This document shows, piece after piece, positions 3,937-51,308 of a stretch of DNA of 64,000 bases. The position numbers were made by a program, and so were the translations under genes. Source of the DNA: Saprospiraceae bacterium. GTDB taxonomy: Bacteria > Bacteroidota > Bacteroidia > Chitinophagales > Saprospiraceae. How positions within the stretch are numbered: position 1 is the first letter of the stretch; every line of letters begins with the position of its first letter. The notes below the pieces were generated by a model. That model was not told the DNA's origin. It was given only the letters and a program-made list of their open reading frames with translations, and searched no databases. The stretch lies in NCBI GenBank assembly GCA_021739645.1, contig JAIPBL010000002.1, positions 1 to 64,000 on the forward strand. The letters run 5' to 3'.

Positions 3937-4800
3937 TCAACCGTTTAGCAAACCCTGTTCACCTTCCGTCAATTGCTTGAGGTTACTGATGGCCCGCGTG
4001 TTCACGAGGATTTCCATCTGCTCTCGGGCGGTTTTGTTCAGGATTTCGAGGCGCTGCTCCTTGGGGCTGTCCCATTCGAGGAGCTTGGCATTGAGGGACT
4101 GGAGGTTGGCCAGCACGAGCAGTTGCTCGGTGGAGGCGTGGTCGCGGAGGTTGCCGGAGAGGTCAGGGTTGGCGGCCTTCCACTCGCGGGCAGTCATGCC
4201 GAAAAGGGAGAGGTTGAGCAGGTCGGCCTCGCTGGCCTGGGCGTATGCTTCTCGGCGGGTGTTCCAGTCAATGATGGGCACGAGGTGCTCCCGAACGGCT
4301 TCGGTGTGGATATGCCAATTGGCCTTGGCAAGCTGCCGCTTGAGGTTCCAGTCGAGGCCGAGGCGGGTGGATTCGTCGGTTTTTAGGCGTTGGAATTCTT
4401 TGATTATCAACAACTTAAAAGAGGGGTTCAACCAAGAGCCGAACTCGAAGGCGATGTCTTTGTGGGCGTAGGTGCCACCGTAGCGGCCTGCACTTGCTTT
4501 GATTCCAATTGCGTTTGTGCTATTTACCCAATCACTGACTGACAACACAAAGGTGTTCAACCCGACATTACTTTTAATCACATCGAATTCGATGTGATTA
4601 AAATTTGGGTTGTTTAAACTTTCCCATAGGCCAAGAAACTCTACTGTATTTCGACTCCTCATCCAGTTTTGAATCACGATTTCTGTGCGCGAACTGGACT
4701 TCTTAGCCATGTCAGTCAGTGAGAAGTAATCCTCCTTTTCGATGTTATACAACCGAATTGTGAAATTATCAACAACTAAAGATGAATGCGTTTTTGCCAT
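3937..4800 (-). CDS. KilA-N domain protein, copy 1
   Basis: The 287-residue product has an N-terminal KilA-N domain (residues ~10-130), with FSLTDMA, NWMRSRNTVEFLGLWE, the F-x-L-S-V-x-x-W segment and GRYGGTYAHKDIAFEFGSWL. A conserved alpha-helical C-terminal part follows (EADLLNLSLFGMTAREW, HASTEQLLVLANLQSLNAKL). KilA-N is a DNA-binding fold common in phages and bacterial mobile regions, so a DNA-binding or regulatory role is likely but not shown. Two relatives lie at 6121 and 9698. A 32-base perfect palindrome (4572-4603) is part of the coding sequence, and its 26-base core is repeated just upstream of the start codon. Confidence 0.9.
   Translation of the reverse strand: MAKTHSSLVVDNFTIRLYNIEKEDYFSLTDMAKKSSSRTEIVIQNWMRSRNTVEFLGLWESLNNPNFNHIEFDVIKSNVGLNTFVLSVSDWVNSTNAIGIKASAGRYGGTYAHKDIAFEFGSWLNPSFKLLIIKEFQRLKTDESTRLGLDWNLKRQLAKANWHIHTEAVREHLVPIIDWNTRREAYAQASEADLLNLSLFGMTAREWKAANPDLSGNLRDHASTEQLLVLANLQSLNAKLLEWDSPKEQRLEILNKTAREQMEILVNTRAISNLKQLTEGEQGLLNG
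4572..4603. repeat. Coding palindrome inside KilA-N copy 1
   Basis: This is a perfect 32-base palindrome centred on GAATTC with arm TTTTAATCACATCGAA. It is read in frame and encodes F-N-H-I-E-F-D-V-I-K. The inner 26 bases are identical to the centre of the palindrome at 4816-4849, upstream of the same gene. Confidence 0.9.
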
Positions 4801-4815
4801 TGAAATGTTTTTTGG

Positions 4816-4849
4816 ATTCTAATCACATCGAATTCGATGTGATTAGAAT
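4816..4849. promoter_or_regulatory. Perfect 34-base palindrome upstream of KilA-N copy 1 (operator candidate)
   Basis: The arm ATTCTAATCACATCGAA is followed by its exact complement. It ends 16 bases from the KilA-N ATG, where an operator would lie. The inner 26 bases equal the palindrome encoded within the gene. Binding by the KilA-N product is inference. Confidence 0.55.
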
Positions 4850-4861
4850 TGAAAGTGGTTG

Positions 4862-5084
4862 GGTTTAATTTGGTGCAATTGCACCAAATTAAACCTAATT
4901 CTATCGAAATCGATAGAATTAGGAACTGGCTAAACCTAACGAAACCGTTACCTTTAAACTAAACCTAAAGTGGTGGAATTCCACCACTTTAGAACCCAAC
5001 CCCTTCGATTTCGAAGGGGTTGAAACCTCACAAACTTAAAACGCCTCGATTTCGCTGCCTTTATTCCATGCAATCACATGGAAT
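4862..5084. repeat. Cluster of further palindromes with different arms
   Basis: At least five more palindromes follow the first: 4862-4895 (34 bases, centre CAATTG), 4894-4923 (30, centre GAAATC), 4965-4992 (28, centre GAATTC), 4997-5022 (26, centre GATTTC), and a weaker one at 5063-5084 with an ATTCCATG arm and a 6-base loop, overlapping the end of the next gene. A decayed one may lie near 4937-4950. The arms are unrelated, but the six-base centre always fits G/C-AA/AT-W-T-C/G. AAACCTAA recurs in the spacers. Confidence 0.85.
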
Positions 5085-6120: not shown

Positions 6121-6939
6121 ATGAAGAATCAAGCAAAATCAATTCTCGTCCAAGGCAACGCCATCCGATTGCAAGCCGACTTTATTTCCTTGACGGATAT
6201 GTGCATTGGGTTTGACAGCCCTTCAGATGCCTTGTTGGAGCGTTGGTTGAGGCAGAAGTACACGGTGGAATATATTGGGAAATGGGAATTGTTGCACAAC
6301 CCGGATTTTGATGCAAATGAGTTTGAGTCATTTTTTAATCAAGCTGGTTCCAATACATTTTACCTGTCGGTAACCAAATGGGTGAAGGCTACTGCTGCCA
6401 AGGGTATAGTGAGTAAAAAAGGGAGAGGTGGTGGCACTTTTGCCCATCGGGATATTGCGTTTCAGTTTGCCAGTTGGCTTTCGGTTGATTTTCATCTCTT
6501 GCTCATAAAAGAATACCAAGTATTACTGGAGGAAAAATTTGGCAAAGAAGCAATGGATTGGAAGGTGAAAAGGACTTTGGCCAAGGTGAACTATTTTCTT
6601 CACACGGAAGCAGTGAAGTCATTGATGCCACCCCGTTTAAACAAGTCTGAATCCGGATTTTTTTATGCCAATGAAGCCGATTTGCTGAACATGGCGCTTT
6701 TCGGCATGACCGCTTCGCAATGGCGGGCACAAAACCCTGACAAACAAGGCAACCTTCGTGATTACGCTTCCACAGAACAACTATTGGTGCTTGCCAATCT
6801 AGAAAACCTCAACGCAGAATACATCAAGTCCAGCCTCAATGCCCAAGAACGCCTTTCATTGTTGAATGAAAGAGCAATCGAGCAACTTGATTTACTTATG
6901 CGCTATGAAGCTGGGAAAAAATTCGTTGAAGGCAATTGA
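6121..6939 (+). CDS. KilA-N domain protein, copy 2
   Basis: The 272-residue product aligns along its length with copies 1 and 3: ISLTDMCIGF, LRQKYTVEYIGKWELLHNPDF, GRGGGTFAHRDIAFQFASWL, and the C-terminal NEADLLNMALFGMTASQW. It is the most divergent of the three. At the position where copies 1 and 3 encode a clean palindrome, this gene has only an imperfect one (AAATGA / TCATTT near 6315-6333). It lies alone between the divergent isomerase gene and the convergent TonB receptor. A DNA-binding role is inferred from the family. Confidence 0.88.
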   Translation: MKNQAKSILVQGNAIRLQADFISLTDMCIGFDSPSDALLERWLRQKYTVEYIGKWELLHNPDFDANEFESFFNQAGSNTFYLSVTKWVKATAAKGIVSKKGRGGGTFAHRDIAFQFASWLSVDFHLLLIKEYQVLLEEKFGKEAMDWKVKRTLAKVNYFLHTEAVKSLMPPRLNKSESGFFYANEADLLNMALFGMTASQWRAQNPDKQGNLRDYASTEQLLVLANLENLNAEYIKSSLNAQERLSLLNERAIEQLDLLMRYEAGKKFVEGN

Positions 6940-6952
6940 TTGCACCTATTTA

Positions 6953-6974
6953 AACCCCCCGATTTCGGGGGGTT
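6953..6974. terminator. GC-rich palindrome between convergent genes, possible bidirectional terminator
   Basis: AACCCCCCGA and its complement are separated by TT. It lies in the 45-base gap between two convergent genes. No T-run follows on the plus strand, so termination is uncertain. It has the same CGATTTCG centre as the palindrome at 4997-5022. Confidence 0.45.
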
Positions 6975-9697: not shown

Positions 9698-10537
9698 TTA
9701 GCTACTCCAACTTCTTGACCTCGTCCAAGCCGCTGGTTTTGATAATGATTTCCATTTGTTCTCTAGCTGGGTGTTTAATATTTCCAGTCGTTGGTCCTTT
9801 GGGCTGGCCCACTGCAGCAGTTTTGAGTTGAGGCTTTGAAGGTTCGATAGCACCAGCAATTGCTCCACTGTTGCGTGGTCACGGATATTGTCCTTCACAT
9901 CGGGATTGGCGGTGCGCCATTGCCGGGCAGTCACGCCAAAAACAGCGAGGTTTAGCAGGTCTGCCTCGGAGGCTTGGTGGATGGCCTCCTTGTTCGTGTT
10001 CCAATCAATGAGCGGGACGAGGTTTTCGCGTACAGCATTGGTATGAATGTGCCAATTGGTCTTGGCGATTTGACGCCGCAGGCTCCAGTTCGTTTCTAAC
10101 CTTGTCGATTCATCTTCTTTCAGACGCTGAAACTCGCGGATAAGAAAAAGATAAAAAGAGGGGTTGAGCCAACTGGCGAACTGCACAGCGATGTCCTGAT
10201 GGGCATAGGTGCCGCCATACCTGCCAGCTTTTGCGGTAATTCCGATTGCATTGGTGAGGTCTATCCAGTCTTTCACAGAAAGGATAAAGTCGCTCAGACC
10301 AGTCTCCGTTCTAATTCGGTGGAAATCCACCGAATTAAAATCGGGGTTGTTCAAGCTCTCCCAAAGGCCGAGGAATTCAATGTTGGAGCGGTTGCGAAGG
10401 TAGTTTTTGATGATGTCGTTGGCAGGGGAACGGCCATTTGAAGCAATGTCCGTTAAGGAAACATAGGCTCCTGTGTCATGCTGTTGAAGCCTGACTTCTA
10501 TGTCTTGAACCTTGATGGTATTTTGTTTAAGAGCCAT
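9698..10537 (-). CDS. KilA-N domain protein, copy 3, with frameshifted C-terminus
   Basis: The 279-residue product closely resembles copy 1 (VSLTDIA, NYLRNRSNIEFLGLWESLNN, GRYGGTYAHQDIAVQFASWL, EADLLNLAVFGVTARQW). The two match up to RLEILN; after LNTQ the frame departs and ends in about 22 unrelated residues. Skipping one base restores AREQMEIIIKTSGLDEV, the family ending, with a stop at 9702-9704. It lies in the 1.1 kb between fecR and the TonB receptor and has its own -7-like TACTTTTG at 10553-10560. It probably entered the signalling operon as an insertion. The DNA-binding role is from the family only. Confidence 0.88.
   Translation of the reverse strand: MALKQNTIKVQDIEVRLQQHDTGAYVSLTDIASNGRSPANDIIKNYLRNRSNIEFLGLWESLNNPDFNSVDFHRIRTETGLSDFILSVKDWIDLTNAIGITAKAGRYGGTYAHQDIAVQFASWLNPSFYLFLIREFQRLKEDESTRLETNWSLRRQIAKTNWHIHTNAVRENLVPLIDWNTNKEAIHQASEADLLNLAVFGVTARQWRTANPDVKDNIRDHATVEQLLVLSNLQSLNSKLLQWASPKDQRLEILNTQLENKWKSLSKPAAWTRSRSWSS
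10312..10337. repeat. Coding palindrome inside KilA-N copy 3
   Basis: Arms TAATTCGGTGGA and complement flank a central AA (26 bases). It is read in frame as F-N-S-V-D-F-H-R-I and sits at the same alignment position as the palindrome of copy 1, although the arms differ. Confidence 0.88.
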
Positions 10538-17253: not shown

Positions 17254-18738
17254 ATGTTAGAACACAAAGTCATTCGACTGATACAAGCACTTTTGAAGAA
17301 GGAACTTTCAGCTATTGAAAAGTACCTATCCTCACCCAATGTCTGTTCCAATGATGAATGTGCCCGCCTGTTCTTTCTGATATGTAAGTTCCTACCTGAT
17401 ATGGACTCTCCAAAACTGACCAAAGAGCGGCTTTTCGCCAAGTTGTTTGGCAAGCAGCCCTACAACGATGGCAAAATGCGGAAGCTGATGACTCAGCTTA
17501 CTCAAGCGATAGAACAGTATTTGATGGAAACCGAACTCAAGCAATCGGAAGAACTCAAGACAAAATTGCTGGCTAGGGCATTGAGTGAACGCGATAATTA
17601 CAAGCTTTTTTATGAAGCAGTGCAGTCTCGTTTGAGGACTCTGGACAATGGGGTTGATAGGGGTAGGAATTATTTCAGGGAAAGTTACGAGTTGTCGGAT
17701 TTGCTCTATTACCACCCGGGGTCGGTTAAGCTTGTTAAAAAACGAGAATATCAGCAACGAGCAATTGACGACTTGGAAAGGTACTTTACCTTGGTGATGC
17801 TCCAAAATGAGGCAAATGATGTAGTAGTCAATCGGGTGATAAACACCGATGGTTCGAAGAGCGGTTATATAAGGGTAGTAATGCAAACTGCCGAAACACC
17901 TTCATTCGCTGCCTTCAATGCCATCAAGTTATTTCGCCATTTAGTTGGGCTATTACAAAGTAAATCGGAGGAAGATCTCGACGAGTTGAGAAGGACTGCC
18001 TTCGATACCTTTCCTCAGTTGAGTCTATTTGAACAGGATTTTGCAACTAACCTGCTTAGAAATTATGCAGTGCCGTTTACCAATAGAGGTTCTATGGAGC
18101 ACGCTCGTTTTACTTTTGACCTTTACAAACTGGAATTGGAGCGTGGCCTTTATGCGAATTCCTTGAGTTCCGGTGCTTTTATGAACATTGTTTCTGTTGG
18201 CCTATTGGTTGATGAAATTGACTGGGTTCATTACTTTATTGAAAACTTCGATAAATGCCTTCCAGAGGACGAGCGATTGAACACACTACACTATTGCAAG
18301 GGGTTTTGGCACTATCGAAAAGGGGTGAAAAGCAATGATATCGATGCGTTTTACAATGCTATTCAGATATTTAATCTAATACCTACGAAAGCTGGTGTAA
18401 ACTATGAACTTAGGGTTCGGTCAACGCTTCTTAGAGTTCATTTTGAACTTTTTGAAAGAGACAAAGAGACATTGGATGAATTGCTGAATAAAGTCAGAAA
18501 TTTTGAAAGACATCTTAGAGGTAATACTCAATATGCCGAAACAATTCGAAGTGGGTACACTAATTTTTTGCGATTTTACAAATCGCTTATTAGAGTGTCT
18601 AAAACTTCGCCGATTAATCAGGCTACAGTTGCCAAATTCTTGAAGAAACTATCACAAGATGGGTCTGATATTTACTTAAAGAACTGGATGCTAGAAAAAG
18701 CCAAGGAATTAGTCGTGAGTGACCAAACCCTTGGCTGA
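17254..18738 (+). CDS. Hypothetical helical protein (~494 residues)
   Basis: I do not recognise a named family. The product has no signal peptide or membrane segment and is rich in Leu, Lys and Glu with a repeating helical look (LIQALLKKELSAIEKYLSSP; LELERGLYANSLSSGAFMNI; FEKLL-like turns). That is reminiscent of TPR-like solenoids but without a clear repeat consensus. Base composition is lower in GC than its neighbours. It stands alone with its own promoter. A cytoplasmic scaffold or regulator is possible, but this is a guess. Confidence 0.8.
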   Translation: MLEHKVIRLIQALLKKELSAIEKYLSSPNVCSNDECARLFFLICKFLPDMDSPKLTKERLFAKLFGKQPYNDGKMRKLMTQLTQAIEQYLMETELKQSEELKTKLLARALSERDNYKLFYEAVQSRLRTLDNGVDRGRNYFRESYELSDLLYYHPGSVKLVKKREYQQRAIDDLERYFTLVMLQNEANDVVVNRVINTDGSKSGYIRVVMQTAETPSFAAFNAIKLFRHLVGLLQSKSEEDLDELRRTAFDTFPQLSLFEQDFATNLLRNYAVPFTNRGSMEHARFTFDLYKLELERGLYANSLSSGAFMNIVSVGLLVDEIDWVHYFIENFDKCLPEDERLNTLHYCKGFWHYRKGVKSNDIDAFYNAIQIFNLIPTKAGVNYELRVRSTLLRVHFELFERDKETLDELLNKVRNFERHLRGNTQYAETIRSGYTNFLRFYKSLIRVSKTSPINQATVAKFLKKLSQDGSDIYLKNWMLEKAKELVVSDQTLG

Positions 18739-27829: not shown

Positions 27830-27867
27830 AAAAACCCGCTGGAACACCCTCCAGCGGGTTTTTCTTT
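27830..27867 (+). terminator. Rho-independent terminator after the lipocalin-like gene
   Basis: AAAAACCCGCTGGA and its exact complement (27830-27843 and 27850-27863) surround a 6-base loop; TCTTTT follows. Confidence 0.85.
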
Positions 27868-51130: not shown

Positions 51131-51150
51131 ACCGCCTGAGACGAAATGGC

Positions 51151-51180
51151 ACTTGAACAAGTCTCTTGACTTGTTCAAGT
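51151..51180. repeat. Inverted repeat ACTTGAACAAG
   Basis: An 11-base perfect stem surrounds an 8-base loop. It lies in the gap between the barrel gene and the S9 peptidase remnant. Confidence 0.65.
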
Positions 51181-51308
51181 GGTGTGGCCTCCTGATAATC
51201 GTCACTCCTTAAGGAGCAGGAACTTATCACAGTTAATTCAATGCCTAGCCTTCTTTTTACTTTGTAGTTTTGCGGGAGTGCGCTTAGGAGCGATGAAATC
51301 AAATTACT

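Follow-up and report, generated by a model that had tools for sequence, protein, structure and literature searches.

A recurrent palindrome inside the coding sequence of a KilA-N family is most likely the binding site of the protein it encodes

Why should a KilA-N gene spell out, in its own codons, the same palindrome that stands before its start codon? The question is raised by a gene for a 287-residue protein (positions 3937–4800, minus strand) in the 64-kb stretch of DNA that was analyzed here as a whole (hereafter, the window). The protein matches the Pfam KilA-N domain (PF04383) at 70.4 bits against a curated cut-off of 23.8 (E-value 1.3e-19), matches full-length (residues 1–276 of 287, 2.4e-116) the model for PDC-S22, a PADLOC phage-defence candidate whose name appears in the accessible text of a genome survey, and falls into the PHROGs phage transcriptional-regulator family phrog_2657 (1.7e-46); no NCBIfam model matches it. 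The coding palindrome, a proposed intragenic binding site, is perfect over 32 bp (4572–4603). Its inner 30-mer (4573–4602, TTTAATCACATCGAATTCGATGTGATTAAA), read from 4602 down to 4573, is codons 67–76 and encodes the peptide FNHIEFDVIK; within these ten codons the reverse complement of codon 11-i is codon i, and the symmetry extends to the full 32 bp. The second palindrome, a proposed promoter-proximal operator of the same type, is perfect over 34 bp (4816–4849) and has a 26-bp core, TAATCACATCGAATTCGATGTGATTA, in common with the first, just as the initial annotation had claimed; the gap between it and the ATG (4800), put there at 16 bases, measures 15.

These two palindromes have company. Upstream of 4816–4849 and up to 5022 stand four more, each different in sequence: array palindrome 2, of the TTTAATTTGGTGCAATTGCACCAAATTAAA type (4862–4895); array palindrome 3 (4894–4923), which has a close copy in the orthologous array of locus L029; array palindrome 4 (4965–4992), whose GTGGTGGAATTCCACCAC core is also found in the L029 and L112 arrays; and array palindrome 5 (4997–5022). 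Their nearest coding types agree in 17, 17, 18 and 17 of 20 core bases, respectively. The C-terminal part of L112 (G154:C32) is close to that of the 3937–4800 gene, its N-terminal module lacks a coding palindrome, and three or more palindromes lie upstream of its start or at the start itself. Scanning the window for palindromes also turned up, in a paralogous KilA-N gene (9698–10537, minus strand, 279 residues), a coding palindrome of another sequence type at the homologous codons (10312–10337, peptide FNSVDFHRIR). A third KilA-N gene (6121–6939, plus strand, 272 residues) has no coding palindrome (3 of 15 pairs) and is followed, 13 nt past its stop codon, by the palindrome AACCCCCCGATTTCGGGGGGTT (6953–6974), which could be a terminator or a site. 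Nine palindromes with a score of at least 10 occur in the window, compared to 0, 0, 0, 1 and 1 in five first-order Markov shuffles; six of the nine belong to the intergenic array or to one of the two KilA-N genes with a coding palindrome, and a seventh is the one behind the third KilA-N gene. Further long palindromes lie at 51150–51181 and at 27830–27863, the latter resembling a terminator hairpin. Elsewhere in the same genome, two more KilA-N matches with palindromes were seen (L005 and L006, on C14 and C124); L006 has AAACCGTGTGCAATTGCACACGGTTT at the usual place in a short open frame of 194 residues.

Homologues were collected from GTDB genomes, from the window's family and phylum, from viral contigs (44 relatives) and from two further phyla, giving 264 distinct genes with near-identical genes counted once. 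The GTDB sample leans to the query because only the best 80 of at least 571 relatives were taken; its members, many of them from metagenome bins, come from Bacteroidota, Verrucomicrobia, Clostridia, Bacilli, Proteobacteria, Spirochaetes, Patescibacteria, Nitrospira and archaea such as Methanosarcina. At the same ten codons, a palindrome with at least 11 of 15 base pairs is present in 234 of 246 full-length homologues, where it encodes 119 different peptides; all 15 pairs are formed in 60 homologues, and 12 fall below 11 pairs. Elsewhere in these genes, 11 pairs are reached by 13 of 63,471 in-frame 30-mers. Moreover, Pfam-based samples (best 30 loci each), which lean less to the query, yielded 56 KilA-N loci in 198 + 195 genomes, and 40 of the 41 new family genes among them have at least 11 pairs. 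Eleven of the 56 loci hold no open reading frame (ORF) of the palindrome-bearing family: seven have an ORF over the match, in which the best in-frame palindrome anywhere reaches 9–11 of 15 pairs, and four have none. The trait, as judged from these sequences, is thus a property of one KilA-N subfamily, with no sign of it in others.

Several features of the site speak for a constraint at the level of the DNA. In the 249 genes with at least 10 of 15 pairs (15 of the 264, 11 of them full-length, are left out by this threshold), the site occurs as 152 distinct 30-mers encoding 124 peptides, among them FKPVEFDGFR, FNYGEFAIIK, FKVVEFDHFK, FKGNEFVTFK, FNSNEFVRIK and FKVMQMRNFK. Nine of the 15 pairs are found in two to four Watson-Crick types (128 distinct 30-mers), and the remaining six, A-T pairs at the ends and center of the palindrome, in one. 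Even the outermost codons covary in single cases, with TTC matched by GAA in L387 and TAT by ATA in L367. Since both arms change together, these sequences place the constraint on the DNA. Codon choice obeys the palindrome, not genome preference: phenylalanine is TTT in 183 of 192 cases at position 1 of the site and TTC in 152 of 181 at position 6, and in genes above 55% GC it is TTT at position 1 in 12 of 13 cases, compared to TTC in 99 of 127 (99 vs. 28) elsewhere.

What the palindrome varies with is a short helix of the encoded protein. We computed mutual information between palindrome bases and residues across the 249 genes (effective number 100) and ranked individual pairs, as a column ranking by summed mutual information is near zero throughout by construction and hence uninformative. 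The strongest signals join N45 to base 11, Q44 to base 9, E40 to base 8 and I41 to base 10. In a gene-wide ranking of 173,694 nucleotide–residue pairs more than 6 codons apart, with pairs within the site left out, the top five all join palindrome bases to residues 40, 41 and 44, and base 11 with residue 45 ranks ninth. A pair between residues 129 and 119 ranks sixth, and further pairs around residues 119–129 rank tenth and eleventh; therefore, the ranking also picks up signals of other origin. An AlphaFold model of moderate quality (pLDDT 82.7, pTM 0.54) places residues 40, 41, 44 and 45 in a helix (39–46), spaced i, i+1, i+4, i+5 as on one face, and shows the palindrome encoding most of a separate helix (69–78). 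We regard codons 39–46 (4663–4686, minus strand) as the predicted recognition helix. The initial annotation had taken the palindrome itself to code for the recognition segment, a view that did not survive: the palindrome encodes residues 67–76, and the predicted recognition helix lies about 25 codons earlier in the same module.

In weighted counts, Lys44 goes with G at base 9 (16.0 of 18.3) and Glu44 with C (9.7 of 9.7); Arg40 (8.0 of 9.0) and Lys40 (4.9 of 4.9) go with G at base 8 and Ala40 with T (11.1 of 11.1); Asn45 goes with T at base 11, that is, A on the other strand (63.7 of 65.7), and Lys, Arg or His at residue 45 with C, that is, G on the other strand (11.0 of 11.0). Contact chemistry fits many of these pairings. 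Others depart from simple chemistry: the total of 10.8 for Arg44 splits into C 5.8, T 3.0 and G 2.0, and Gln44, at 26.0 in all, has C in 19.1.

Because helix and palindrome share one module, shared descent inflates any such estimate of covariation. In 117 non-overlapping sister pairs, residue 40 is the best of all columns for changes of base 8 (p 7.5e-8), as is residue 41 for changes of base 10 (p 3e-11); residue 44 comes fifth for base 9, a weaker link (p 0.0012, with E40 the best for base 9), and the link between base 11 and residue 45 is weak (p 0.04, outside the best five, with L62 the best for base 11). With relatives of at least 70% module identity excluded, leave-cluster-out prediction of bases 8–11 reaches accuracies of 0.70, 0.74, 0.62 and 0.82, compared to 0.44, 0.46, 0.45 and 0.77 for always choosing the commonest base. 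The true quadruplet of bases is among the top 3 of 41 in 58% of cases (weighted), compared to 16% for the sites of other genes (every third gene, 20 permutations); among 40 later genes it is in the top 3 for 28, a less strict figure, with relatives in the training set. The change can be seen directly in L062 and L033, which are about 93% identical outside the site and differ at 9 of 30 site bases: bases 7–9 are GGG in one and CCC in the other, and the sole change in helix 39–46 is Lys40 to Asn. Mutual information, sister pairs and leave-cluster-out prediction thus all find the coding palindrome changing together with the predicted DNA-reading residues. The covariation of bases 8–11 with residues 40, 41, 44 and 45 makes it most likely that the palindrome is the KilA-N protein's own binding site.

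Helix and palindrome also appear to be inherited as one piece. Differences between palindromes track the identity of residues 32–104 (partial rank correlation 0.474, given the C-terminal part) and do not track that of residues 105–262 (0.035). When L256 and L250 are compared at the DNA level in 12-codon blocks, identity is 83–100%, mostly 100%, from about codon 108 on and 39–69% before; the L178 and L152 proteins agree closely at both ends and diverge between. Breakpoints in the pairs examined fall at about codons 32–36 and 104–108. Together, identity correlations and breakpoints outline an exchangeable specificity module of about 70 codons (codons 32–104; 4489–4707, minus strand) that holds both site and reading head. 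With the palindrome in the module that encodes the helix, one exchange event moves both, which would explain the odd placement of the site.

How general is the copy before the start codon? Using a 24-mer, we looked for each gene's own type in the 150 nt before the ATG at the 191 loci with enough flank. The own type ranks in the top 1% of types at 13 loci, three of them close orthologues, compared to 1.9 expected; the corresponding counts are 2 of 188 in the next 150 nt upstream, 2 of 191 in the 150 nt downstream and 4 of 194 in a segment within the gene. The own type stands out clearly in the window and its orthologues L110 and L029, and in L233 (24 of 24 bases), L070 (23 of 24) and L185 (20 of 24). 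In L103, the rare center CCATTTGG is present in coding and upstream sites alike, and in L498, found by pattern search, the upstream palindrome shares its core with the coding one. Coding and upstream palindromes are thus of one type in a minority of loci, the 13 of 191, which lends partial support to the idea that the two change together. A constant helical phase between upstream and coding sites was not found.

Upstream palindromes are nevertheless related to the coding types. Of the upstream palindromes, 35 are distinct, and 24 of these agree with some coding type (the gene's own included) at no fewer than 16 of 20 core bases, a level reached by 2 of 300 shuffled half-sites. Foreign types also occur, for example in L239 and in four of the five that the window has. 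For the four other array palindromes of the window, no coding site of a co-resident paralogue is the nearest type (the paralogue L005 is outside the set), and no clear avoidance of shared types was seen among co-resident paralogues (1 of 70 pairs vs. 31 of 1106 between genomes; 18 genomes). An upstream palindrome, whatever its type, accompanies 5 of the 11 genes that lack a coding palindrome, compared to 20 of the 233 that have one (score of at least 10 within 150 nt; p 0.0023); in L221, one of the five, it is not of the KilA-N type. L124, L127 and L134, whose coding palindromes are imperfect (12, 11 and 10 of 15 pairs), have in common the helix KTMIQNW and an upstream GGCATC...GATGCC palindrome. 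The KilA-N genes L166 and L085 are preceded by a further palindrome, ACCATTTTGTTGAC..GTCAACAAAATGGT, and a variant of it lies on C14 of the window's own genome (about 18422–18457, L019), beside two KilA-N-type palindromes; no KilA-N ORF was found there. In the 6.16-Mb genome, the window motif matches with up to 3 mismatches at 4576–4599 and 4821–4844 only. Such confinement to its own gene argues against a regulon and for a self-directed role.

We think it probable that this role is that of an intragenic operator, through which the KilA-N protein regulates its own gene. The conserved palindrome, its covariation with the helix, the exchange of modules, the copies upstream and the lack of further sites in the genome are computed results; from them we infer protein binding, reading by a dimer and repression. 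Two KilA-N domains in symmetric arrangement would each read one half-site, with residues 40, 41, 44 and 45 of helix 39–46 contacting bases 8–11. Bound protein would limit transcription of its own gene via the intragenic site, and a second site just before the ATG may sometimes help or replace it. Recombination that swaps modules would carry reading head and target together, and point changes in the helix would be matched by paired changes in both palindrome arms. With its operator inside the gene, such a locus would be a self-limiting unit, movable behind any promoter. Against the operator stand the scarcity of upstream palindromes (only the 20 of 233 genes mentioned above) and the 12 of 246 homologues with fewer than 11 pairs.

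Among the alternatives, the one that survives best has the palindrome serve as a self-immunity key, by analogy with the BstA protein and its aba element. The KilA-N protein would be an abortive-infection effector and the palindrome its DNA antidote: the palindromes of a replicating carrier would occupy and silence its own protein, foreign DNA without the key would be attacked, cognate and fast-changing keys would exclude rivals, and intergenic arrays of several types would be key sets. BstA itself is a KilA-N-like abortive-infection protein with a cognate DNA element in its own locus (PMC8585504, as far as its accessible text goes). The PADLOC listing as a phage-defence candidate points the same way, as do the 44 relatives in the viral-contig scan and two genomic settings, one between annotated repressor and integrase genes in the Streptococcus satellite phage Javan279 and the other on a plasmid, with Qat defence genes about 3 kb away. 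Consistent with it, too, are the rapid site change between L062 and L033 despite their identity outside the site, and orphan palindromes with no KilA-N ORF in the fetched stretch, which came to light when 100 genomes of the family were searched for one group of types: L485 (645–680) and L490 (1496–1529), both near contig ends, and L493 (1498–1527). However, the own-type upstream sites lie close before the ATG, as operators do, and aba sits at the gene start and depends on direct repeats, with no palindrome named in the accessible text of that report (PMC8585504). In the open-access literature that we searched, in so far as its text was accessible, we found no defence assay for the palindrome-bearing KilA-N family. 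The fast change of types fits the operator and self-immunity readings alike, and we consider self-immunity rather unlikely.

A wider proposal, which we put forward only tentatively, is that in every member of one mobile KilA-N family the recognition module targets the very DNA that encodes it, so that lock and key change together. The palindromes would then form a recognition system between mobile elements in which the own key silences the own protein, and arrays such as 4816–5022 would hold keys against several KilA-N types.

The remaining alternatives do without such a system. A recombination site, serving to cut and swap specificity modules and needing no binding by the protein, would suit a palindrome central in a module whose surroundings are exchanged, but the breakpoints in the pairs examined fall away from it, and the conserved sequence expected of such a site is replaced by a hypervariable one that tracks helix residues; we hold this to be very improbable. 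Still less credible is a role in the mRNA, where the self-complementary 30-mer could fold into a hairpin: pair 2 departs as a T-G wobble in 46 of 128 distinct sites, but this pair is a Lys/Arg exchange, and the other departures from pairing (47 G-T, 39 A-C and 80 others) have no clear wobble bias and thus no sign of an RNA stem; moreover, the palindrome has no loop, and from a role in RNA one would not expect single bases to covary with a protein helix. Rickettsia palindromic elements are mobile palindromic repeats, and the insertion of such a repeat into KilA-N genes and spacers, suggested by the similar palindromes in the coding site and intergenic arrays, is equally hard to credit, for 10 of the 11 full-length homologues without the palindrome align gap-free at the site (the other is a residue shorter), the copies share a shape and not a sequence, as the 152 distinct 30-mers attest, and the window motif occurs in its genome at its own gene only.

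Genes that contain operators and loci that contain cognate elements are already known. New here, and perhaps more than a variant of these, is a proposed binding site in the recognition module's own codons that stays symmetric while both diverge. As of 2016, recognition sequences of KilA-N domains outside fungi were little known, according to the accessible text of one paper (PMC4862756), and we found no report of a self-encoded KilA-N binding site in the open-access literature searched, again in so far as its text was accessible. One stretch of DNA here stands under two codes, one for the protein and one for the palindrome. If the intragenic operator or any other form of self-site is real, most genes of this KilA-N family, which spans bacteria, archaea and phages, print the site of their protein, and sites would be predictable from sequence alone; this would offer a testable reading code for a family with largely unknown targets and a simple route for inheriting a recognition domain and its target as one piece.

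One of the closest known systems is BstA/aba, which has several features in common with the locus described here: a KilA-N-like DNA-binding protein on mobile elements and a cognate-specific, partly coding DNA element in its own locus, a specificity that the covariation found here only predicts (Owen et al. 2021, PMC8585504, accessible text). The bstA gene often lies near a prophage repressor; the gene before the family member is an annotated transcriptional repressor in Javan279, has no name in phage EW, where the neighbors are unnamed, and is not a repressor in the window. The aba element is 63 bp long, lies over the start codon and depends on CCCGCC direct repeats (PMC8585504, accessible text), whereas the element described here is a 26–32-bp palindrome at codons 67–76 that covaries with a helix. 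In this family we did not meet an aba-type element with terminal direct repeats at the gene start, the conserved element being the palindrome, and BstA is absent from the PADLOC matches up to an E-value of 1, in a library that may or may not hold a model for it.

By fold, the N-terminal part of the model is related to the APSES/SBF domains of Mbp1, its best match (PDB 1bm8; Z 7.8, rmsd 2.8, 86 aligned residues) and PCG2 (PDB 4ux5; Z 7.4, rmsd 3.4, 92 aligned residues). The fungal relative PCG2 reads DNA with its wing and not with a helix, according to the accessible text of the report (PMC4862756), whereas the covariation signal here is in the helix. Over its whole length, the 3937–4800 model is best matched by the Deinococcus protein DdrC, which belongs to the DNA-damage response (Z 11.2, rmsd 7.7, 195 aligned residues, 10% identity). 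Foldseek returned nothing at an E-value of 0.001 or better, and a sequence search against solved structures nothing below 0.15. We took no function from fold similarity to DdrC or Mbp1.

E. coli PurR is an autoregulator with an operator inside its coding sequence besides one near the promoter. The KilA-N genes resemble such autoregulators in having a predicted binding site within the regulator's own gene and, at some loci, another near the promoter, but in the sampled family an intragenic site is standard. It occupies codons of the DNA-binding domain, remains symmetric as its sequence changes, and is carried along with the specificity module. Type I restriction specificity subunits carry exchangeable target-recognition domains between nearly identical flanks, and modular exchange of the recognition domain is common to both systems; to our knowledge, restriction targets are not encoded within the recognition domain's own DNA. 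Finally, the residue–base code of the LacI family was likewise derived from sites next to the regulator gene (Camas et al. 2010, PMC2978694, accessible text), in another protein family and with sites sought in intergenic regions, whereas the sites proposed here lie within the gene.
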